Origin: Methanosphaera stadtmanae
GTDB lineage: Archaea > Methanobacteriota > Methanobacteria > Methanobacteriales > Methanobacteriaceae
NCBI GenBank assembly: GCA_015062805.1
Contig: SUTQ01000002.1
Span: forward strand, 62,001-126,000
Length of the DNA: 64,000 nucleotides
Reading direction: 5' to 3'
Made by a program: the position numbers and the translations under genes. The notes beneath the pieces were generated by a model. It was not told the origin of the DNA, ran no database searches, and saw nothing but the letters and a program-made list of their open reading frames with translations. This document shows positions 12,114 through 44,370 of this stretch, one piece after another; positions within the stretch are counted from its first letter, which is position 1, and every line of letters starts with the position of its first letter.

Positions 12114-13355
12114 TTGAACAAAAAACAATTAAAAATAGCTGTATTTCATAATCTTCCATCTGGTGGGGCAAAACGATCATTATATACATATATTCAATAT
12201 TTAACTCAACAAGGGCACATTGTTGATGTTTTCATTCCAGAAACAGCTAATGAAGATTATTTACCATTAGATTCTGTTGCTAATAGTGTAATTAAATATG
12301 AAGTTAAACCAAGTTTTTTTAGAGAAAAAATCTATTCAATTTTCAGTTATGTTCCAGCAATAATTAAAAGAGTATCTGTTAAAAACGTTATGGAAACTGA
12401 GAAAAAAATCGCTGAAGATTTAAATAATTCTGGGTATGATATCGTTTATTGTGAACAGGATCAGTTTACAATGACTCCAGTGATTTTCAAATATTTAACA
12501 AAACCTTCAATATATTATTGTGCCCAACCAATTAGAAATGAAAAGATTCTTAAAAAAGTAAATAATCAGAAAACTAAAGCAGGCATATTTAATCATCCTT
12601 TAGTACGTCCGTTTGCAAATATGTTTGTAAACAATGTTGAAACAAATGATTATGAAAGAGATATTGAATTTGCAGAATATTCAACAAACCTTTTAACAAA
12701 CTCCTATTTTACACATGAAAATATATTAAGACAATATGGAAAAAATGCATTAGTTTCTTATATAGGAGTAGATAATAAGATGTTTACTCCATTAAATCTC
12801 AAAAGGGATAATTACGTATTATCCGTAGGAACTTGTATACCTCCAAAAGGATATGATTTTTTAATAAGATCAATTTCTAACATACCTGAAGATATTAGGC
12901 CTGAATTAGTTATAGTAGGTAATAGTAGTGATGAACTATGGGTAGAATATCTAATTACATTAGCCAAAGAGAAAAAGGTTGAATTAGACATATTAACCAT
13001 GATATCTGATGAAGAATTAATTAATTTGTATAATAAAGCTAAACTGGTGGTATATGCACCTTATTTAGAACCGTTTGGTTATGTACCATTGGAAGCAATG
13101 GCCTGTGGTACTCCAGTAGTCGGAGTTAAAGAGGGCGGACTTAGAGAATCAATATTACATAATAAAACAGGATTACTTACTCAAAGAAATGAGAAGGACT
13201 TTGCCAATGCTATAATCAAATTATTAAATGATGAAGAATTGTGGGATAGATTATCACAAACTGGAATAAAATACATAGAATCAGCATGGACTCTTGAAAA
13301 AGCTGGTGAAAGATTATTGGAACATATGTATAGAATATTAGAAGAAAATGAGTGA
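12114..13355 (+). CDS. GT4-type glycosyltransferase
   Basis: GT-B-fold glycosyltransferase of 413 residues. The N-terminus has the glycine-rich acceptor loop (HNLPSGGAKRSLYTYI). The C-terminal half has VLSVGTCIPPKGYD and an EX7E motif EPFGYVPLE followed by AMACGTPVV. It starts at TTG 12114 after AGAGGTAAG, with no better ATG. It sits between two paralogous GT2 genes on the same strand; the next start overlaps or abuts its end. All three probably act in sequence on one glycan, which is an inference from their packing. Confidence 0.88.
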   Translation: MNKKQLKIAVFHNLPSGGAKRSLYTYIQYLTQQGHIVDVFIPETANEDYLPLDSVANSVIKYEVKPSFFREKIYSIFSYVPAIIKRVSVKNVMETEKKIAEDLNNSGYDIVYCEQDQFTMTPVIFKYLTKPSIYYCAQPIRNEKILKKVNNQKTKAGIFNHPLVRPFANMFVNNVETNDYERDIEFAEYSTNLLTNSYFTHENILRQYGKNALVSYIGVDNKMFTPLNLKRDNYVLSVGTCIPPKGYDFLIRSISNIPEDIRPELVIVGNSSDELWVEYLITLAKEKKVELDILTMISDEELINLYNKAKLVVYAPYLEPFGYVPLEAMACGTPVVGVKEGGLRESILHNKTGLLTQRNEKDFANAIIKLLNDEELWDRLSQTGIKYIESAWTLEKAGERLLEHMYRILEENE

Positions 13356-13360
13356 TTAAA

Positions 13361-14317
13361 ATGAATGAACCATTAGTATCCATAATATTATTGAATTGGA
13401 ATGGTTATGAAGATACATTGGAAGCATTGGAATCATTATATCAGATAAATTATCCTAATTATAATGTGATAGTTGCCGATAATAATTCCACAAATGATTC
13501 AGTTGAAAAAATAAGGGAATATTCTCTTGGAAATATTAAGATAGAAACTAAATATACAAAATTCATGCAAAATAAACCCATTCAATTAACTATTCTAAAA
13601 GAAGGGGAATTTACTAAAGTAGACAATATATCTACAGAAAACGAAAAAAAATTGTTACTAATAGAAAATAAGGAAAATTATGGTTTTGCTAAGGGTAATA
13701 ATATTGCAATTGAATACACAATTAAATACGATGAACCAGAGTACATCTTATTATTAAACAACGATACAATAGTTGCTCCGGATTTTTTAGAAAAAATGAT
13801 TGCCGTTGCACAAAGTGATTCTAAAATAGGATTATTAGGACCAAAATTTTACTATTATGATTATGAAGGAAGTCATGATACAATTTGGTGTATAGGTAGT
13901 GTGGTTGACTTGGATCATTTTCCGGGACATCATAGTATAATGGAAGAACCTAATTATGATTTAACTCAAGATGTAATAGAATGTGACTGGGTATCTGGAG
14001 CGGGAGCATTAATAAAAACAGAAGCTATGCCTAAAACATTTTTATCAACAGAATTTTTCTTTGGATGTGAAGATGTTGATTTAGCAATAGCAATCAAAGA
14101 GAAAGGATACAAAGTTGTAACAGTTATGGATTCAATAATATGGCATAAGGTTGGAATGTCAAGACATAAAAATTCTACATTTAAAACAGAATATAATCAT
14201 ATAAAAACTAATTTACAATTTATCAAAAAGCATAACTCCAACTATTATTTGAGTTTACCAAAATATTACTACCAAATATTAAAATTGTACATTAAAGCGA
14301 TAATTAACAAATTATAA
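13361..14317 (+). CDS. GT2-type glycosyltransferase
   Basis: Family 2 GT-A transferase, paralogue of the gene at 11135. The N-terminus VSIILLNWNGYEDTLEALESL, VIVADNNST, LLLNNDTIVAPD and FFGCEDVDLA match the family. ATG 13361 is selected because GAGTGAT at 13350-13356 lies before it; GTG 13352 would overlap the end of the preceding gene and lies inside that site. About 55 extra residues separate the second and third strands relative to short GT2 enzymes. It ends the small + strand glycosyltransferase operon and is followed by a 270-bp AT-rich gap. Confidence 0.88.
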   Translation: MNEPLVSIILLNWNGYEDTLEALESLYQINYPNYNVIVADNNSTNDSVEKIREYSLGNIKIETKYTKFMQNKPIQLTILKEGEFTKVDNISTENEKKLLLIENKENYGFAKGNNIAIEYTIKYDEPEYILLLNNDTIVAPDFLEKMIAVAQSDSKIGLLGPKFYYYDYEGSHDTIWCIGSVVDLDHFPGHHSIMEEPNYDLTQDVIECDWVSGAGALIKTEAMPKTFLSTEFFFGCEDVDLAIAIKEKGYKVVTVMDSIIWHKVGMSRHKNSTFKTEYNHIKTNLQFIKKHNSNYYLSLPKYYYQILKLYIKAIINKL

Positions 14318-14587
14318 CTTTTTAACTATTTTTAAAAATTTTTTTAAATTATTTATATCTCATATAGTGTAATACTTTAAAATAATAATTAATTTTTTAT
14401 TCTAAAATTGTGTGTTTGTTTAGTTAATTTTTAAAAGAATTTTATTTTAGGTCTTTGAAAAATACAACACATAGTTAGTTATAAAAAAAATATTTTTCAT
14501 TAAAATTTTAAAAAGATTTAAATATTATTTAAAACAAAAATTTCAGTTATAATTCATTGATTATCAATGTAATACGGAGTTGTTAAC
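14318..14587 (+). other. AT-rich gap upstream of the surface protein
   Basis: No gene is visible. The stretch is almost entirely A and T, with T runs after the GT2 stop that may end its transcript, and several TATA-like candidates (for example around 14350-14358 and 14518-14530) that could serve the surface-protein gene. GGAG at 14576-14579 is the ribosome site for the next gene. Confidence 0.5.
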
Positions 14588-16561
14588 ATTAAGAAAAGAT
14601 ATTTATTAGTGTTAATTACTGTTTTATTTATTAGTTTAACTGTAGTTTCGGCAACTAATGATACTACTAGTGAAGAAGATGATTCATATCCTTATCTAAA
14701 TGGTGATTCATCAACATATGATTCAGAATTAATCACTAAGAAAACAAATGATAATGTTACGAAAACAAGTATAAAAACCAATTCAAAAACCTCTGTTAAT
14801 GCAGTAACAATAAAATATAATTCTACTGCAAAATTAAGTGCAAAAATCACTAATGCCAATACAGGTCAAAATATTAATGAAGGTAAAGTAGTTTTTAAAC
14901 TTAATGGTAATACAATTGGTTATTCTAATGTAAATAATGGAATTGCAACTTACGCATATAATGCTAAAAGTTTAACTCCTAAAGATTATACCTTAACGGT
15001 AAAATTCGGTGAAACTTCTAATTATTTGGGAAGTTCATCAGATTCAAAATTAACTGTTGTAAGGGATGAAAGTAAAATTGTTGTAAATAACGTAAATGTT
15101 ATTTCTAATGAAACAGTTAAGATTACCGCAACAGTAACTAATAAAAACAATGGAGTTTATGCAACAAGTGGTAAGGTTGCATTTAAACTCAACGGAAAAA
15201 CAATTGGTTATGCAAATGTAACAAATGGGAAAGCTATACTGACTTATAAAGCGGTTCATTCTGCAAAATCATATAAGCTTAACGCCACTTACGGTGGTAA
15301 CAATATATTGAATTCATCAGTTTCATCTATGAGTTCTTTTGTAGTTTCACCAAGACCTACAAAAATGACTGTTGGTAAAATTTCAGGATATTCCACTACT
15401 GTTGAACTTAAAGCTACAGTTGTGGATAAGTTAACTTCCAAATATTTATCTTCAGGTCTTGTAGTGTTTAAAATTAACGATAAAACTATGGGAAACGCCA
15501 CTATTGAAAATGGAAAAGCCTCTTTGAAATATAATTCCAGTCAACTGGCAAGGGGTACATATAAAGTAACAGCTTTACTTAAACCTACGTCATTTTATGA
15601 AGCATCTAATGCTACAAATAATTTGACAATTTTGGTAGAAAATACATTTACATATGATCAAATTAAAAATGCAGCTATTTATGTCAGAACAGTTTATGAA
15701 TCTAACAATACTTTAACTACTGTGCCTATTGGTAAATCCAGGATTGCTTTGTCTGAATTCTTAGCATTGATGATAAAATCTTGTTTCTATGCAGATAGGG
15801 GAGTAAAAGTTAATATTACTTATAAGAAGTATGCCTCATTAAATGAACAGTATGATTCATTTACAAAAGTTGTATTGAATATTTCTCAGGTTAAAGAAAT
15901 TGGTGACAGAACATTAAGTTTCATGGAATCTAATGGAAGACCACCAAAATATGTTTCTACAGAATTTGGAAAAATGGGTTATTTCAATATAGTATATACT
16001 TACTGTAGAGTAATGGATGTTTCAGCGTATAATTATCTGCCTTCAACTTGTAGAGTTTACAGTTGGGCAAGTATGCATCCATCCAGTTCCAAATCAAGAA
16101 CAATCTATTTAACAAGTGATGCAGTCTTAAATAAGGAAAAAGATTATGCTTTTATGGAAAGTATAAAAAATAAACTAGAACAAAAAGGTTATAAGGTTGT
16201 TATACTAGGATATGGACCAAATTCACATAATACTGCAATTAGAAGTCAATCATTGCCTATAAATGCATTACAAGTATCTATATTTGGTGGGGCAGATGCC
16301 GGGGTTATCTACGATATGTGTACAAGAAGTTTCATGAAATTAAAGGAAAGTAGATTGATGTATTTAGTTTATTATCCTGATTATTGTACAGATATAACTG
16401 GACTGTCCTATTTACCGAGAGCACATGATGATAATTACTCACCAAGTAGCTTTAAAGGAATATCTAATCCTGATATCTATTTAAAAAATAATGGATATGA
16501 CTATGTATATTCAAAAAATATTAATACAATAGTAAATGGTATTATTAACTATATAAGTTAA
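14588..16561 (+). CDS. Secreted surface protein: signal peptide, Ig-like repeats, pseudomurein-binding repeat
   Basis: Predicted cell-wall-attached protein of about 657 residues. Beginning at ATT 14588 gives a perfect signal peptide: KKR, then a hydrophobic core ending VVSA; GGAG lies 8 nt upstream. The GTG at 14609 would lose the positive n-region. Next come about three Ig-like repeats of ~95 residues (GKVVFKLNGNTIGYSNV, GKVAFKLNGKTIGYANV, GLVVFKINDKTMGNATI). A pseudomurein-binding-repeat-like segment follows (YDQIKNAAIYVRTVY to LSEFLALMIK, about residues 358-402). The final ~220 residues, with SRTIYLTSD and SIFGGADAGVIYD, I cannot assign beyond resembling other Methanobacteriales surface proteins. 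It converges with the GT4 gene 5 bp away. Confidence 0.85.
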   Translation: MKKRYLLVLITVLFISLTVVSATNDTTSEEDDSYPYLNGDSSTYDSELITKKTNDNVTKTSIKTNSKTSVNAVTIKYNSTAKLSAKITNANTGQNINEGKVVFKLNGNTIGYSNVNNGIATYAYNAKSLTPKDYTLTVKFGETSNYLGSSSDSKLTVVRDESKIVVNNVNVISNETVKITATVTNKNNGVYATSGKVAFKLNGKTIGYANVTNGKAILTYKAVHSAKSYKLNATYGGNNILNSSVSSMSSFVVSPRPTKMTVGKISGYSTTVELKATVVDKLTSKYLSSGLVVFKINDKTMGNATIENGKASLKYNSSQLARGTYKVTALLKPTSFYEASNATNNLTILVENTFTYDQIKNAAIYVRTVYESNNTLTTVPIGKSRIALSEFLALMIKSCFYADRGVKVNITYKKYASLNEQYDSFTKVVLNISQVKEIGDRTLSFMESNGRPPKYVSTEFGKMGYFNIVYTYCRVMDVSAYNYLPSTCRVYSWASMHPSSSKSRTIYLTSDAVLNKEKDYAFMESIKNKLEQKGYKVVILGYGPNSHNTAIRSQSLPINALQVSIFGGADAGVIYDMCTRSFMKLKESRLMYLVYYPDYCTDITGLSYLPRAHDDNYSPSSFKGISNPDIYLKNNGYDYVYSKNINTIVNGIINYIS

Positions 16562-35982: not shown

Positions 35983-36927
35983 TTAAGAATTAAATTCTTT
36001 TTCATAGAAATCTATAGTTTCTTTAAGTTCTTTATTGAAATCATGTTCATTTACATAACCAAAAGCTTCTTCAGCTTTACTAATATCTGCAACGGAATTT
36101 TTGATATCTCCATCTCGAACAGGTTCATATTTGGGATTAAAGTCATAACCCATCAATTCGCATATTTTTTCTAACAATTCTTTAATATTTATGGTACTGC
36201 CATGTGCAATGTTATAAACTCCAGTAACATCACTTTTAGCTACTTGGATGTTTGCTTCAGCAATATTTTTTACAAAAACAAAATCTCTAGTTTGAGTTCC
36301 ATCTCCGTAAATTATAGGCCGTTCTCCTTTAAGTAAAGTTGTAATAAATTTAGGTATAACTCCACTATATGCCGAATCAACACTTTGTCTTGGGCCAAAT
36401 ACGTTGAAATATCTTAAACAGGCTGTTGGTAGGTTATATGTTTTTGTAAATGTGTAAGAGTATAATTCCATAGTTGCCTTACTAACAGCATAAGGTGAAA
36501 GAGGTTTCAATGGTAGTTTTTCATTATTAGGTAATACTTTAGTTTCACCATAAACAGCGGCTGATGAAGCACATACAACTTTTTTAATATTGTTTTCACA
36601 TGCTGCTTTAAAGATATTGAATGATCCTTCAATATTAATTTTATTTGTTTTATTAGGTTTTTGAACACTTTCAGGTACACTAACTAACGCTGCTTCGTGA
36701 AATACAAAATCATGATTTTCAAAGATTTGTTTTAAATTTATTTCTGTAATGTCTCCACAAATAAGTTCTATTCTGTCATGATCTAAATCTTTAAGGTTTT
36801 CTATCTTTCCTGTTGACATATTGTCTATTAATGTAACTTTAGATACTCCTTTGTTGAGTAATGCTTCTGTAATATGCGAACCAATAAATCCAGCTCCACC
36901 TGTTACTATACATTTTTTGTTTTCCAT
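35983..36927 (-). CDS. UDP-sugar 4-epimerase-like SDR
   Basis: Extended SDR of 314 residues. NAD-binding GGAGFIGS at residues 10-17, a Tyr146/Lys150 pair in SPYAVSK, LRYFNVFGPRQ and YGDGTQTRDFVFVKN are those of archaeal UDP-glucose (or UDP-GlcNAc) 4-epimerases. ATG 36927 lies after GAGGAATA; the longer form from 36963 begins at a non-ATG codon and lacks a ribosome site. A UDP-galactose product would feed glf, which lies 1.3 kb downstream in the same operon; this link is inferred. Confidence 0.88.
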   Translation of the reverse strand: MENKKCIVTGGAGFIGSHITEALLNKGVSKVTLIDNMSTGKIENLKDLDHDRIELICGDITEINLKQIFENHDFVFHEAALVSVPESVQKPNKTNKINIEGSFNIFKAACENNIKKVVCASSAAVYGETKVLPNNEKLPLKPLSPYAVSKATMELYSYTFTKTYNLPTACLRYFNVFGPRQSVDSAYSGVIPKFITTLLKGERPIIYGDGTQTRDFVFVKNIAEANIQVAKSDVTGVYNIAHGSTINIKELLEKICELMGYDFNPKYEPVRDGDIKNSVADISKAEEAFGYVNEHDFNKELKETIDFYEKEFNS

Positions 36928-36979
36928 TTTATTCCTCATTAATTCTGTATTAAAAATTGTCATTTTGGATAAGAAATGA

Positions 36980-37408
36980 TTATATTACATTATATCGTAA
37001 AAATAATGTTCGATAAGGATTATTTTCATCATTTTTATATAATTCTATATTAATTGTTTGATTAATTCCCTTGTTTTTAGTTTGATCCATATAATATGGG
37101 AATTGGATATTTTCTTTGTCTTTTAATGATTTGACATCGGTAAATATGGTCTTATTATTCTTTTTAATTTCTATCGTGTAATTTATATCTTGATGTTCTT
37201 GATTAGTTATTCCGATATATATCTTTTCAACTGAATTTTGTGTTATGTTGATTGGAAAATCTGTCGTATTATTGTTATGATCCACTATGTAAAATTCAGT
37301 ATAGTCTTGACCGGGATTATGGAATACTACAAGATAGATTACTAATATGATTGAAATTATTAAAATAGCTAATAATACTCCTTTAACAATTTTGTTTAAT
37401 TGGGTCAT
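36980..37408 (-). CDS. DUF1616-like single-span membrane protein
   Basis: A 142-residue protein with one membrane segment (about residues 9-30: VLLAILIISIILVIYLVVF) followed by an outside beta-rich domain. The domain (YTEFYIVDHNNNTTDFPINI, then VEKIYIGITNQEHQDINYTIEI) resembles the C-terminal part of the archaeal DUF1616 family, which is often next to polysaccharide genes. Full members have several membrane spans, so this is a short form. GGTGAAAT precedes the ATG. It appears to be the first gene of the operon running left to 31291. Its role is unknown. Confidence 0.7.
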   Translation of the reverse strand: MTQLNKIVKGVLLAILIISIILVIYLVVFHNPGQDYTEFYIVDHNNNTTDFPINITQNSVEKIYIGITNQEHQDINYTIEIKKNNKTIFTDVKSLKDKENIQFPYYMDQTKNKGINQTINIELYKNDENNPYRTLFLRYNVI

Positions 37409-37504
37409 ATTTCACCATGAACAACTTTTTAATTTATTATAATTTAATATGTTTCTTTTAATATACATAATTATAATAAACTTTCTTTAATGGAGTTTCT
37501 ATTT

Positions 37505-38524
37505 ATGAATGAAAAATTTTATGTAACTGATTGTGAAGGACCATTATCTATAAATGATAATGCATATGAAATATCAGATTATTTTATTCCGGAAGGTGGT
37601 GAATTTTTTAGTATATTAAGTAATTATGATGATATGCTAGTTGAAAGAAATACTGAAGGATATCTTGCAGGTAGTACTTTGAAACTCATTTTACCATTTT
37701 TTAAAGCGTATGGTTTAACTGAAAAAGATTTAATAGAATTTTCAGAGGATAATATCAATATGGTAAATGGTGCTTATCAGATGATAAAGCATGTTCAGAA
37801 CATCATGCCATTCTATATAGTAAGTACAAGTTATAATCAATATATTAAGGCTTTATGCGATAAAACTGGTTTTATTTATGAAAATACATATTCAACACAT
37901 CTGGAATTGGATAAATTTAAAATAACTAACGAGGAACAAGAAACATTACTTGCTATTAGGGAAAATATTTTATTTGATTATGGATTTGAAAATATACATA
38001 AACAATTTTCAGAAGTAATATCCAACATGCAAATAAATAATTTAATCGAATCAGTAACTCCAGTTGGAGGAATTGGAAAACGAAATGCAATTTTGGACAT
38101 AATTGATAAAAATGATTATGAACCTGAAAATTTAATTTATAGTGGGGACAGTATTACGGATTGTGAAGCATTAGAATATGCTAAAGAAAATGGTGGAATA
38201 AGTATTTCATTCAATGGTAATATTCATTCTATTAGTTCAGCAGCAATATCTATTACTTCTACAAATAACTTGATATTGGCATTAATTGCGGAAATTTTTA
38301 AGAATAAATCAACAGAAGGAGTTTATGACTTTATAAGTTCTTATGATGAAAATCCTTTGGAATCAATTTTATCATATTCCAAAAATGATGAAATAACTCA
38401 AGAATTACTTTTAAATAAACCTTCCATTGATATAATTTCTGAAGAAAATATTCCAGAATTAAATGAAAAAAGTAAATTAATTAGAAATAAGGTACGAGGA
38501 CAAAAAATAGGAAATTTAGGATAG
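37505..38524 (+). CDS. HAD-like protein (EhaR/COG4030-type)
   Basis: A 339-residue HAD-superfamily-like protein. Motif I appears as TDCEGPL near residues 7-13 with the first Asp in place, motif II as [10 protein letters not shown], and motif IV as [12 protein letters not shown] with the acidic pair. A long helical cap separates motifs I and II. I recall proteins of this type annotated EhaR or COG4030 in Methanobacteriales; this needs a search. ATG 37505 is chosen since TGGAG overlaps the earlier ATG 37490. It heads a tight operon with the Ftr-like (7-nt gap) and PfkB genes. Phosphatase activity is likely but untested. Confidence 0.7.
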
Positions 38525-38531
38525 TGAAACT

Positions 38532-39416
38532 ATGAATTTAGAAATAGAAGATACTTATTGTGAAGCATTTACGGGAACATGCGTAAGAATAATTGTAACA
38601 GCAGAAGATGACAGAACTATAGAAAAAATTGCATATGATGCATGTGCAACACCAGGTACTGTAATTGGAAGAACAGAATCAGGAGTTGAAAAATTCTTGT
38701 CACCAGAAGAAACTCCGGACAATAGGCCAGGGGTAATAATACAATTCTGGTACAATACGAAGGATTTGAATAAATTTGACAAGGAATTATCATTCAGAAT
38801 AAGACAAGACATTCTTGTAAAACCTTTCGTAAAAATATTTGATGCATCAATCAATCCATTTGATTATATAGATACAACAGAACACGTTGGACATTGTGGT
38901 GACGGATATGAATGGACAGAAGACTTTGATGGCAGAACCATGATAAGAGTACCAATATGTGTACCTGACTTTTATATTGAACAAAAACTTGGTTGTATGG
39001 AAGGAATTATGGGAGTTAACTTCTGGTACTACTGTAGTACAAAAGAAGCAGTTTTAACTGGAGGATATAAATCATTGGAAGCATTGGCTGAGGTTGAAGG
39101 AATATGTACTCCTTTTGATATTTGTTCAGCAGGATCTAAAGTAGAAACAAATTATCCGGAGATAGGTCCAACAACTAATCATCCATATTGTCCATCACTT
39201 AAAGATAAGTTAGGTGAAGAGTCTAAAGTAGATGATGGGGTTAATTACATTCCAGAAATAGTTATAAATGCATTGACATTAGAAAATGCAGAAGAATCAT
39301 TGAAAAAAGGAATTGAAGCATTAGAAGATGTTGATGGGGTTCTAAAAGTGTCTGCTGGAAATTATGGTGGAAACTTAGGAAAATATAAAATGTATCTAAA
39401 AGAAATTTTAGAATAA
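38532..39416 (+). CDS. Divergent formylmethanofuran:tetrahydromethanopterin formyltransferase homologue
   Basis: 294 residues and collinear with Ftr of methanogens: the N-terminus [17 protein letters not shown], the [12 protein letters not shown] stretch, [12 protein letters not shown], the SAGSKVETN segment, [13 protein letters not shown], and the C-terminal [21 protein letters not shown] all have counterparts. Yet it is Cys-rich (over ten cysteines) and diverges strongly between these blocks, so it is probably a paralogue rather than the main enzyme. It lies between a HAD-like and a PfkB-kinase gene. Ftr moves a formyl group between methanofuran and H4MPT; the substrate here is open. Confidence 0.8.
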
Positions 39417-39435
39417 ATTGTTTTGAGGAAAAAGT

Positions 39436-40377
39436 ATGTCTTTGGATATTATTGGATGGGGAGCATTGAACGTAGATAGGTTATGTCAAGTAAATGAGTT
39501 TGCACCAATAGATGGTGAAACTTACATATACAATGAAACCAAATCTTGTGGTGGTTCAGCATCAAATACAATTATTGGAACAGCAAAACTTGGATTGAAA
39601 TCAGGTTATATTGGAAAAATAGGTTCAGATTCTAATGGACAAATGATGAAAGATTATTTGATTAAAAACAATGTCAATATTGATCATTTAATAGAATCAG
39701 AAGGAGAAACTGGTGAAGTGATTGGATTTGTTGATAATGAAGGAAATCGTAAATTATATGTGACTCCAAAAATTAATGATAAGATTTATAATAAGGATAT
39801 AAATAGAAATTATTTATTAAATTCAAAAGTTTTACATTTAACCTCTTTTGTAGGATTAAATCCTGATGATCCATCTATTAATACCCAATTTGAACTACTT
39901 GAAGAAATATCATCTAAAATCACCGTCTCTTTTGATCCTGGAATGTTATATGTTAATAAAGGAAAAGATTTCATGGAAAAATTAATATCATATACCGATA
40001 TTTTACTAATCAATGAATCAGAATTATTAATTACAACACAAGAAGAAGATTTTGAAAAAGCAGTTGAAAAAATTGCTCCTAAAGTGGATATTTTGGTTGT
40101 AAAACGTTCTACTGAAGGTTCATTTATTAAAAAAGATGATGAGGAATATAATGTGGGAATATTTAAAGTAGATACAGTAGATACTACTGGAGCCGGTGAT
40201 GCGTATAATGCCGGATTTTTATATGGATACCTTAAAGGATATTCTCTTGAAGAATCAGGAATTATTGGCAGCTATGTTGCGGCTCAATCTACTACAAAAA
40301 CAGGAGCAACAGAAGCTATTCCTAACATCCGTGACATTAATATTTCAGAAATAATTAACAATATTAAAAAACAATAA
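39436..40377 (+). CDS. PfkB/ribokinase-family carbohydrate or nucleoside kinase
   Basis: A 313-residue PfkB-family kinase. It has the N-terminal GGSASNTIIGTAKLGLKSGYIGKIG motif and the C-terminal DTTGAGDAYNAGFLYGYL with the catalytic Asp of GAGD near residue 254. GAGGAAA precedes ATG 39436, 19 nt after the Ftr-like stop, so the three genes form one operon. The usual substrates are sugars, fructose phosphates or nucleosides; nothing visible decides. Its pairing with a HAD-like protein and a formyltransferase homologue suggests a shared phosphorylated intermediate. Confidence 0.85.
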   Translation: MSLDIIGWGALNVDRLCQVNEFAPIDGETYIYNETKSCGGSASNTIIGTAKLGLKSGYIGKIGSDSNGQMMKDYLIKNNVNIDHLIESEGETGEVIGFVDNEGNRKLYVTPKINDKIYNKDINRNYLLNSKVLHLTSFVGLNPDDPSINTQFELLEEISSKITVSFDPGMLYVNKGKDFMEKLISYTDILLINESELLITTQEEDFEKAVEKIAPKVDILVVKRSTEGSFIKKDDEEYNVGIFKVDTVDTTGAGDAYNAGFLYGYLKGYSLEESGIIGSYVAAQSTTKTGATEAIPNIRDINISEIINNIKKQ

Positions 40378-41105: not shown

Positions 41106-42224
41106 TTATTTTCTTTGTCCTTTAGGGCGAGGAATATTCTTCTTTTCATCATTTGCATCAGTTCTGTTCAACTGATTTAATTTTTCTTTCCATCCGGATC
41201 TATTTATGTTTTCGGAATTGAAACTTACTTTTTCTTTAGATTCTTTTTCAGTTCGAATGTGTGGTGTTTTATCAGTTTTGCGAATAATTTTTATTTCAGG
41301 TTCATTTTGAATGGTTTCCTGACTCATATTTACTTCTTTATTCACATTCATATCGATTATTTCTTTGGTTTCTATTGTATCAACGTTTTCACTAACATCT
41401 TCTGTAACATTGTCATTATGTTCAACTATGATATCAGTTGGACTTTCTTTTATAATCTCTTCAGAATTATGTTCTATGATAATGTCATTTTCATTAGAGT
41501 CTAAAACAGATTTATCGATTATTTCTTCTTTGTCTTTTTTATGCTTAAATCTGATGTTCAATTTATCTGCAATTTTTTTATTTTCTTTAGGTTCTTCTGG
41601 TTCTACATATATTTCATTAGTTTTCGGTGTTGTTTGGGTTACTTTAGCTTCTCTTGGATGGAATGTCTTTTTAATTGTGTCTTTTAATAAACTGAATGAA
41701 CTAGTTACTCCTTCATTTAGTTTTTCAGTTTTGTTTTTGGAATGGATATTATTCATTATATCTTCTTGAATAATTTCTCTTCTTCTTTGTCTTCTGTTGG
41801 TTAATTCTTCAATTTCGGCTTCAACATCTTCGAATGGGTGTTTATTATTATGAATGTAATTGTGTAACCAAGGAACTAAAGGATACTCTTTAATTCTATC
41901 TAGTTGAACCCAATTATATGTTTCATAATCTTTAGATAATAACAATTCTCCGTTGAGTATGTTTCCTTCCATTATAACATGTACTTCTTTATCTGTTTTA
42001 TTGGTATAATCACCTATACCTATAATTTTTCCAGGATATACATAGTAACCTATTTCTTTTTGAACATTAGTAATTACGGTCTCATCAAAACTTTGTTCTT
42101 CTGTAAAAGTAGCACCAGGTAAATCCCAACGGTTCTTTTCGTCCTCTCTTTTTTCTTTTAAAAGTAGAAGTTTATTTTGTTCGTTGTATATTACGGTTTT
42201 AACGTACATATTAAACGTTTTCAT
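41106..42224 (-). CDS. Nudix-like domain protein with long charged tail and degenerate Nudix box
   Basis: About 372 residues. Residues ~5-140 form a Nudix-like fold: YVKTVIYNEQNKLLLLKEKRED, RWDLPGATF, and a Nudix-box region (starting at GATFTEEQSF and ending VQKEIGY). The box keeps the first and one late Glu, but the RE pair is Thr-Asn and the next Glu is Lys, so catalysis may be lost. The remaining ~200 residues are Glu/Lys/Asn/Ile-rich and look disordered. The ATG 42224 follows CAGGATG; longer forms overlap the upstream gene and add an odd basic stretch. It may bind a nucleotide derivative without cleaving it. Confidence 0.65.
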   Translation of the reverse strand: MKTFNMYVKTVIYNEQNKLLLLKEKREDEKNRWDLPGATFTEEQSFDETVITNVQKEIGYYVYPGKIIGIGDYTNKTDKEVHVIMEGNILNGELLLSKDYETYNWVQLDRIKEYPLVPWLHNYIHNNKHPFEDVEAEIEELTNRRQRRREIIQEDIMNNIHSKNKTEKLNEGVTSSFSLLKDTIKKTFHPREAKVTQTTPKTNEIYVEPEEPKENKKIADKLNIRFKHKKDKEEIIDKSVLDSNENDIIIEHNSEEIIKESPTDIIVEHNDNVTEDVSENVDTIETKEIIDMNVNKEVNMSQETIQNEPEIKIIRKTDKTPHIRTEKESKEKVSFNSENINRSGWKEKLNQLNRTDANDEKKNIPRPKGQRK

Positions 42225-42366
42225 TTTATTAAACATCCTGTTGTATTTATTTACTCTTGAATAATTAAATTTATAAATTATTAAGTTATAGATACTATTT
42301 ATTTTATCTAATCTTATTATTAATTTTTTTCTAAATATTTTGTAAAAAAAAGTAAGGGGGTTAAAG

Positions 42367-42990
42367 TTAGGTAGTCGTATTTGTAATATTTTGAGGTTGT
42401 GCTTGTACTCTAGTTTCTCCATAAAATGGTTTTTCTAAGTGTAAATCTTGTAATGTTTGATTAAAGTCAGGATGTTGGGTTAATAAAGTTTTTATATCTA
42501 CATAAACCTCATTTAAATCTTTTTGACTATCTGTCATTTCTGTATTTGCATTATTTATGGAAGTTTGTGCATCTTGGGCGCTTTTTTCTCCTTTAACATA
42601 TTGGCTGATGGAATATAATGTTGAAACAGTTCCATTTAGATTTTTTGATTCTAACTCTAAACGTTTAATTTGTAATTCAATATATTTTTGTTTAGTTTCA
42701 TCATTATTCGTCTGTTTTGATGTTTCATTTAATTTGGCTATTTCTTCCGCATATTTTGGTGTAATTTCATTATTTATGGTATTAATTAATGTATCTGCAT
42801 CTGTACTTTCTTGATTGTTGAATTGTTCAGTTGTTGAAATAATCTTTGTTTCAATTGCACTAGCGTCTTGTAATCCTTTATCATAATTTTCAGATAAAAT
42901 ATTATCTTGGTAAGGGATATAAAAACAGAAATACCCTGCAATTATTATTACAGCCAATGCAATAATTGCTGCTATAATTTTTTTATCCAT
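42367..42990 (-). CDS. Membrane-anchored extracellular coiled-coil protein
   Basis: A 207-residue protein with an N-terminal hydrophobic anchor (KKIIAAIIALAVIIIAGYFCFYIP) and a mostly helical, Gln/Asn/Thr-rich outside region. The central part (about residues 50-135) has heptad-like spacing (IELQIKRLELESKNLNG), suggesting a coiled coil. No family is recognised. It is upstream of the Nudix-like gene in the same direction. It could be a lipoprotein-like or pseudomurein-associated factor, but nothing in the sequence shows that. Confidence 0.7.
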   Translation of the reverse strand: MDKKIIAAIIALAVIIIAGYFCFYIPYQDNILSENYDKGLQDASAIETKIISTTEQFNNQESTDADTLINTINNEITPKYAEEIAKLNETSKQTNNDETKQKYIELQIKRLELESKNLNGTVSTLYSISQYVKGEKSAQDAQTSINNANTEMTDSQKDLNEVYVDIKTLLTQHPDFNQTLQDLHLEKPFYGETRVQAQPQNITNTTT

Positions 42991-43167: not shown

Positions 43168-44370
43168 ATGGGCAGTGAAGATGAATCATCTATTTTGGAA
43201 ATCAGTAATCGCAACAAGGAATTAATTCATGAAGTTTTTGAATTAGAAGCTAATGGTCATAAAGATGCTAGGGATTTATTTAAAGAGGAAATAACAGGTT
43301 TTTTGATTAGAACAGAAGATGGTTCATTTACATTAGCTTCTGATAAAAGGGGAGAAGAATCTGAAACATTGCATAGTACTTTTGGTGCAAGAACAGAATC
43401 TTTCCAAAAATTTGTTATTCCATCAAAAATATTAGAAAAAGCAGAAAATACTAATGTAGTTAAAGTTTTAGATATCTGTAGTGGTATTGGTTATAATGTA
43501 TCTGCATTGTTGGATTACTTGAAGGGCGTTGATGTTGAAATTGAAGTTGACATGGTAGAATCTTCATTGGAAACACTTGCAACTACATTATTTATACCTG
43601 ATATTTGTGAATCTCACCAATATGTGAAAAAAGCTATTGAAACATACTTAATTGAAAAGGGTTATTTGCAATTTAATAAAGTTTTAAGTAATATTCCTTC
43701 AAATGTAACTATTAACATATATGTCTGTGATGCTAGAGATTATATAAAAAATTGTGATGATAAGGAATATGATGCAATTTTTTTAGATCCGTTTAGTCCA
43801 GCTAAATGTCCTGAATTATACACGGTGGATTTTTTTTCTAGATTAAAACAGTTTTTAACTCCAACAGCATTAATATTAACTTATACAGCGGCAAGTCCTG
43901 TACGATCTGCATTTGTGGATGTGGGGTTGCATGTAGGGGAAGGACCAAGAGTTCACAGAAGTGGTGGAACAATAGCTTCACGAAGTCCAGCATTGATTGA
44001 AACTCCATTGTCCTTCAGTGATGTTAAAGTTATTGCTTTAAGTGATGTGGGAATACCATATATTGATCCTTATCTTACTGATGATTATAGAACTATAATG
44101 GAAAGAAGACAGAATCAACGGAAAATAAGTAGAGGTAAAACTACCTTCCCTTCATCTAGCAAATTGCCACGTTATTTGGGTTTGGATCCGGATGTAATTG
44201 AAGATGATACTTTAAGAAATAAATTAGTGGCTTATGTTCAAGAAATGGGTTTTTCTTCATTGAATGATGAAAGAATAGTGAATTTATTAAATATTGACCC
44301 TAATCTTTATAGTAGAGATCAAATACTAGCTCTCAGGGAAAATTTACATAAATTATTAAATAATAATTAA
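43168..44370 (+). CDS. MnmC-like SAM-dependent methyltransferase
   Basis: A 400-residue protein with a class I methyltransferase core. Motif I is VLDICSGIGYNVSALLDYL near residues 102-120, and the MnmC-type catalytic motif is LDPFSPAKCPELYTVDFFSRL near 211-231, corresponding to the LDAFSPxKNPELW block of bacterial MnmC(m), which makes mnm5s2U in tRNA. There is no FAD oxidase domain, and the end (about residues 310-400) is an extra helical extension. SAM binding is likely; the substrate, perhaps tRNA U34, is inferred. AAGGTG precedes the ATG. It converges with the THUMP-like gene 21 nt away. Confidence 0.8.
   Translation: MGSEDESSILEISNRNKELIHEVFELEANGHKDARDLFKEEITGFLIRTEDGSFTLASDKRGEESETLHSTFGARTESFQKFVIPSKILEKAENTNVVKVLDICSGIGYNVSALLDYLKGVDVEIEVDMVESSLETLATTLFIPDICESHQYVKKAIETYLIEKGYLQFNKVLSNIPSNVTINIYVCDARDYIKNCDDKEYDAIFLDPFSPAKCPELYTVDFFSRLKQFLTPTALILTYTAASPVRSAFVDVGLHVGEGPRVHRSGGTIASRSPALIETPLSFSDVKVIALSDVGIPYIDPYLTDDYRTIMERRQNQRKISRGKTTFPSSSKLPRYLGLDPDVIEDDTLRNKLVAYVQEMGFSSLNDERIVNLLNIDPNLYSRDQILALRENLHKLLNNN

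Follow-up and report, generated by a model that had tools for sequence, protein, structure and literature searches.

What do a HAD-superfamily protein, a homologue of the formyltransferase Ftr and a PfkB-family kinase do together in Methanosphaera stadtmanae? The three genes form a compact, co-directional set at positions 37505-40377 of the window, by which we mean the whole stretch of 64,000 nucleotides that was analysed, and are separated by gaps of 7 and 19 nt. The open reading frames were found just as an earlier, sequence-only reading had described them. The features of the locus are:

35983..36963, minus strand: NAD-dependent sugar epimerase, part of the conserved upstream flank
36980..37408, minus strand: DUF1616 protein (PF07760), with which the conserved upstream flank begins
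37409..37504, plus strand: AT-rich divergent intergenic region between the DUF1616 gene and the triad
37493-37496, plus strand: GGAG ribosome site within the intergenic region
37505..38524, plus strand: EhaR orthologue of the HAD superfamily (COG4030/AF1437-like), the module's proposed phosphatase
38532..39416, plus strand: Ftr2, EhaS orthologue, divergent formyltransferase; proposed to be formyl-H4MPT-dependent and to act in purine step 3
39436..40377, plus strand: EhaT orthologue of the PfkB/ribokinase family, the module's proposed riboside kinase

The ATG at 37505 lies 8 nt downstream of the GGAG motif and agrees with the start of the HAD orthologues. A scan for consensus promoters was uninformative (23 sites versus 22.4 expected).

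Relation to the eha operon

Judged by sequence and gene order, the triad consists of the orthologues of EhaR-EhaS-EhaT. The HAD protein, Ftr2 and the kinase are 41, 59 and 40% identical, respectively, to the genes that end the eha operon in L046, where they occur in the same order. The triad also ends the operon in L047, L049-L052 and L056, in Methanothermobacter and in most Methanobacteriaceae examined. The orthologous Methanothermobacter genes, which we take from their position to be MTH402-404, have the gene order of the window triad; the window triad differs from them in belonging to a genus without Eha hydrogenase. The sequence-only reading had likened the triad to genes that close some eha operons and had seen no Eha subunits here, and on both points it was right: none is encoded near the triad, and EhaA was detected neither in the source genome nor in any of the 20 genomes of the genus Methanosphaera, compared to 120 of the 131 other genomes of the order. 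That Methanosphaera lacks ehaA-Q has been reported (PMC6120340). The triad itself is contiguous in all 20 Methanosphaera genomes, with Ftr2 as its best conserved member (mostly 87-95% identity within the genus).

The upstream flank indicates how this situation arose. The block of flippase, epimerase and DUF1616 genes upstream of the window triad is the block found upstream of ehaA in relatives: the epimerase is 44.6% identical to the gene preceding ehaA in L046 and is also present in L047-L051 and L056, and DUF1616 homologues precede eha in L047, L048 and L056. By synteny, the intergenic region 37409..37504 is the point occupied by ehaA-Q in relatives. As the upstream block is common to both, we concluded that ehaA-Q were lost in place. 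A further, unusual split of the operon was observed in L048 (G002; 12408-15647), where EhaA directly precedes EhaR-S-T and EhaB-Q lie outside the 20-kb stretch.

In the literature, EhaR, EhaS and EhaT count as subunits of the Eha [NiFe]-hydrogenase with a structural or assembly role. The likeness of EhaS and EhaT to a formyltransferase and a ribokinase was pointed out by Kaster et al. 2011 (PMC3087415), who held these functions to be very unlikely because the genes are co-transcribed with ehaA-R. Besides this co-transcription with ehaA-Q in Methanothermobacter (PMC3087415), the position of the triad at the operon end in L046, L047, L049-L052 and L056 speaks for subunits. However, the triad is kept under strong conservation in all 20 Methanosphaera genomes although these lack EhaA, it occurs in a different gene order and without Eha neighbours in L241, the triads of Bathyarchaeota and Archaeoglobi have no Eha gene nearby, and the sequences are those of enzymes with catalytic motifs. 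Since Methanosphaera has no Eha and yet retains the triad, a role as Eha subunit as the sole function was ruled out, and we regard the subunit assignment as barely credible.

The three proteins

Ftr2 contains both lobes of the Ftr family, PF01913 and PF02741, at 161 and 182 bits (Pfam gathering thresholds 27 and 25). Its AlphaFold model (pLDDT 85.5) has the fold of the formylmethanofuran:H4MPT formyltransferase Ftr/FhcD, with TM scores of 0.86-0.87 to 1FTR, 1M5S, 1M5H and 6S6Y, whereas sequence identity to these proteins is only 30-36%. Against the canonical Ftr model TIGR03119, Ftr2 scored 224 bits, below the equivalog cut-off of 292.6, while a second ftr gene of the genome (G000:C15) is canonical with 461 bits. 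A tree of 96 proteins placed Ftr2 and canonical Ftr in two clades, with support of 100/100. Members from Methanobacteria, Archaeoglobi, Bathyarchaeota and a Methanopyrus-like genome occur on both sides, and the presence of these four broad groups in either clade indicates that the duplication is old. The description of the Ftr homologue as divergent and Cys-rich in the sequence-only reading, which had also called for a search for a canonical copy and a phylogeny of both, is borne out. Ftr2 has 10 cysteines. Three of them, C122, C168 and C198, recur in 97-100% of 71 Ftr2 proteins but not in canonical Ftr; C220 is conserved in both types alike. Altogether, 33 positions are invariant in both, including the residue equivalent to M. 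kandleri E245 (E242 in Ftr2), a catalytic residue of Ftr. Invariant residues of its own that set Ftr2 apart from the canonical enzyme are R91, C122, E205, T206 and P213.

These data bear on another assignment, an Ftr isoenzyme of the CO2-to-methane pathway. The common fold and the conserved E242 are in line with it, as is the NCBIfam subfamily NF002554, which labels Ftr2 as Ftr; automatic annotation thus hides the gene as a second 'Ftr'. The deep separate clade, the score below the equivalog cut-off and the retention of Ftr2 beside a canonical copy led us to rule this candidate out. In addition, Ftr1 is the more transcribed copy in ANME (PMC9012536), and Ftr2 persists in Methanosphaera, a genus that does not form methane from CO2 (PMC6120340). 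An isoenzyme function is, therefore, highly unlikely.

The HAD protein has no Pfam match. It matches the solved structure 1y8a (AF1437) with an E value of 2.8e-31 in phmmer, and its model superimposes on 1y8a with TM scores of 0.86-0.93 (AlphaFold/Foldseek); the next-nearest folds are SerB phosphoserine phosphatases. Invariant residues are D9, S107, K192 and the GDSxTD motif at 214-219, and motif I reads DxE instead of DxD. The protein thus belongs to the AF1437/COG4030 family, from which no function can be transferred as AF1437 is uncharacterised. The kinase belongs to PF00294 (E value 8e-51, 173.5 bits) and possesses the catalytic TGAGD motif. It shares fold family and GAGD with PfkB nucleoside and sugar kinases such as MJ0406, its nearest solved relative (a sugar/nucleoside kinase), the ribose-1-phosphate kinase models and the AIRs kinase 1TZ6, but scores far below every NCBIfam equivalog cut-off.

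Linkage to purine genes and the absence of PurN and PurT

Loci outside Methanobacteria were collected by a scan for relatives of the HAD protein, and their neighbours were scored with profiles of the triad. The order HAD-Ftr2-kinase was found, never adjoining Eha, in seven loci of Bathyarchaeota and in Mnemosynella, and HAD-kinase-Ftr2 in two loci (L260, L271) of the phylum around Archaeoglobus. Archaeoglobi have HAD-kinase pairs with Ftr2 elsewhere in the genome, not beside pur genes. The triad thus recurs across phyla in several gene orders, which together with its contiguity in 20/20 Methanosphaera genomes indicates that the arrangement is not due to chance. It is conserved outside the strain, throughout the order and beyond; order-wide and phylum-wide searches with the HAD protein showed universality only. 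Ftr2 is present in 107 of 393 genomes from the phylum sampled around Archaeoglobus, scoring at least 307 bits against 250 for the next best match; the remaining genomes with a match mostly have the canonical type only. A related group in Aenigmatarchaeota (L237, on the contig shared with L160; 4901-8255) holds kinase, Ftr2-like and HAD genes together, with the Ftr2-like gene on the opposite strand and very divergent (279 bits); it may have another function.

The neighbours of these loci point to a pathway. Directly upstream of the triad, purD is found in each of the eight loci from Bathyarchaeota and Mnemosynella, usually accompanied by purF, purQ, purL or purM. The order is purF-purD-HAD-Ftr2-kinase in L128 and L136, next to purQ, purL and purM on the opposite strand and, in L136, with one additional ORF between HAD and Ftr2; in L238, purL-purQ-purM-purD-HAD-Ftr2-kinase occupy a single strand. 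The Bathyarchaeota PurD, PurF and PurM proteins are divergent and score below the NCBIfam cut-offs. No pur genes lie beside the triad in the window.

The source genome encodes PurD (471 bits, cut-off 288) and PurL (921 bits, cut-off 526), and neither a PF00551 (Formyl_trans_N) protein nor a PurT above the cut-off was found in it. PurN-family (PF00551) proteins and PurT above the cut-off were likewise each absent from 40 of 40 Ftr2-bearing genomes (22 Methanobacteria and 18 others, chiefly Archaeoglobi and Bathyarchaeota; a distant Aenigmatarchaeota genome was left out), a set that was found via the HAD gene or picked as Methanobacteria and is thus no unbiased sample of purine-making archaea, and that includes several incomplete MAGs that may miss genes. 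Positive controls worked for both families. Ftr2 was clearly separable from canonical Ftr in these 40 genomes (at least 352 versus at most 234 bits), and of all 53 genomes tested, 41 had a PurL above the cut-off.

This gap has been noticed before. Neither purN nor purT could be located by Brown et al. 2011 (PMC3261824) in two Archaeoglobi, in Methanopyrus or in four members of Methanobacteriales (M. stadtmanae, M. smithii, M. ruminantium and M. thermautotrophicus), although the remaining pathway is present there and M. thermautotrophicus grows as a purine prototroph. Chadwick et al. 2022 (PMC9012536) described the same gap at step 3 in ANME-1 and, in a separate section, Ftr2 paralogues in ANME-1, ANME-2a, ANME-2b, Archaeoglobales, Methanopyrus and Methanothermobacter, leaving the two observations unconnected. 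A link between Ftr2 and purines was not found in the literature searched, which excluded most subscription papers, so that priority is not proven. The complementarity between PurN/PurT and Ftr2 holds in the 40 genomes sampled through the HAD gene or as Methanobacteria; ANME-2a and ANME-2b, which carry PurN plus Ftr2 (PMC9012536), are an exception.

In Aerophobetes, Deltaproteobacteria, one Actinomycetota bacterium and Methanomassiliicoccales, kinase and HAD genes flank a PurN-family protein in the position of Ftr2. This protein belongs to PF00551, has TIGR00639 (PurN) as its best NCBIfam match, with a higher score for PurN than for PurU, and retains the catalytic N, H and D of PurN (INLHPA and a later D). 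A GWxSxGRDxAAxxLL motif stands in place of the GNGSN loop of E. coli PurN, presumably the loop that binds the GAR phosphate. Genomes of Methanomassiliicoccales and bacteria that encode the PurN-like protein also yielded no PurT above the cut-off; in those members of the Aerophobetes set with additional PF00551 proteins, the sole other one has the length of Fmt. The bacterial kinase-PurN-like-HAD set does not adjoin pur genes. In a tree of HAD proteins, those of Methanomassiliicoccales group with the archaeal Ftr2-type ones at modest support (87/89), as if, from this grouping, the formyltransferase had been swapped inside a conserved HAD/kinase frame. Another version of the kinase/HAD set occurs in Bipolaricaulota (L108, L114), where HAD is followed by a very divergent PurN-like ORF (63-70 bits) and the kinase is encoded on the opposite strand.

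A candidate route from GAR to FGAR

Based on these results we propose that the triad is probably a stand-alone module for the third step of de novo purine synthesis, the conversion of GAR to FGAR, in organisms that use tetrahydromethanopterin (H4MPT). Ftr2 would be a formyltransferase acting on GAR or its riboside, most likely with N5-formyl-H4MPT as donor. It would thus share the chemical step with the GAR transformylase PurN and with PurT, to neither of which it is homologous at the level of sequence or family, and would differ from them in using an H4MPT-bound formyl group rather than formyl-H4F or formate plus ATP. Kinase/HAD sets of bacteria and Methanomassiliicoccales would carry out the same step with the PurN-family protein replacing Ftr2.

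In Methanosphaera, formyl-H4MPT would be formed from serine via methylene- and methenyl-H4MPT, with C3 of serine derived from the methyl group of acetate via pyruvate; hydrogenotrophs would obtain it from CO2. Methanosphaera has no working CO2-reducing branch (PMC6120340). Labelling placed acetate C2 in purine C8 in M. stadtmanae and not in M. smithii, data that the 2011 paper termed inconsistent (PMC3261824); with H4MPT as donor, both results are accounted for. Eha is described as an anaplerotic hydrogenase (PMC5563889), and the triad makes sense in its operon if Eha refills a C1 pool drained by biosynthesis.

Several observations count against the assignment to purine synthesis: PurN and Ftr2 occur together in ANME-2a/2b, Ftr2 of Archaeoglobi is away from pur genes, PurD, PurF and PurM of Bathyarchaeota are divergent, HAD motif I is DxE and not DxD, and, according to Brown et al. 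(PMC3261824), formyl-H4MPT is not regarded as a working donor of formyl groups.

For the part of the HAD protein and the kinase, we tentatively favour a detour through unphosphorylated nucleosides, a serious possibility that would apply to the Ftr-fold and PurN-fold enzymes alike. The HAD protein would strip the 5'-phosphate from GAR, the product of PurD; Ftr2 would formylate the resulting glycinamide riboside; and the PfkB kinase would put the phosphate back at the expense of ATP, yielding FGAR for PurL. The detour is favoured over direct action on GAR by the linkage of HAD and kinase to whichever formyltransferase is present, and by the gene order purD-HAD-Ftr2-kinase, which is the order of dephosphorylation, formylation and rephosphorylation. 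Such a route would cost one ATP, like PurT, and would render the overall step irreversible although formyl-H4MPT is a modest donor.

Alternatively, Ftr2 might formylate GAR directly, from formyl-H4MPT or formyl-methanofuran, with HAD and kinase in ancillary roles such as nucleotide homeostasis or the repair or salvage of intermediates that have lost their phosphate. All evidence for the purine step applies here as well, and this option, nearly as probable as the detour, is a sub-case of the module whose likelihood is contained in that given above. Ftr2 has gained the invariant residues R91, E205 and T206, which may allow binding of the GAR phosphate; judging from their conservation, R91 and E205 could bind a phosphorylated substrate directly, and the detour would then be unnecessary. 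The pairing of HAD and kinase away from Ftr2 in Archaeoglobi also fits. However, the two accompany the bacterial PurN-family version too, their linkage through several gene orders suggests a shared reaction, and the PurN phosphate loop is missing from the PurN-like partner.

A different pathway altogether, either to a formylated (ribosyl) metabolite or cofactor or by hydrolysis of formyl-H4MPT to supply formate to PurP or other enzymes, appears unlikely. The location of the bacterial set away from pur genes would agree with it, as would the distant relationship of the PurN-like protein to PurU deformylases, but this protein scores higher for PurN, and purD precedes the triad in eight archaeal loci. 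As a formate source, moreover, the triad would leave step 3 without an enzyme, as PurT is absent too. The sequence-only reading had suggested an undescribed C1 or cofactor pathway; of this, C1 transfer stands, whereas the evidence points to the GAR formyltransferase gap and not to a cofactor pathway. Its further suggestions, that the fold works outside central methanogenesis and that phosphatase and kinase belong with the formyl-transfer protein, hold up. The two findings that it had named as refuting, a lone ftr with normal active-site residues and a triad confined to this strain, did not materialise: a separate canonical ftr exists, and the triad is conserved throughout the order and beyond. 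Two other candidates were dropped: synthesis of H4MPT or methanofuran, which a phosphatase and a kinase would suit, because of the PurN-like replacement and the purD linkage, and a HypX-like formyl donor for CO-ligand synthesis of [NiFe]-hydrogenases, because a sugar kinase has no obvious role there and the evidence from purine linkage was stronger.

If the module acts as proposed, it would give purine step 3 a third, non-homologous solution and would, to our knowledge, be the first formyl-H4MPT-dependent biosynthetic formyl transfer. A single hypothesis would then cover the gap reported since 2011 (PMC3261824; PMC9012536) and the function of EhaS/EhaT, reconcile the labelling data and give a reason for a purine step in an anaplerotic hydrogenase operon.

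Three further genes lie 3' of the triad. Directly adjacent is an ExoD-family gene (PF06055; 40438-41076, plus strand), where relatives have eha-linked polyferredoxin and CBS genes. A NUDIX-domain protein with a long, charged and repetitive C-terminal tail of about 240 residues is encoded at 41106-42422 (minus strand). The gene at 43168-44370 (plus strand) contains a PF05430 MnmC2-like methyltransferase domain, here in an archaeal genome, with a score below the bacterial MnmC2 cut-off.
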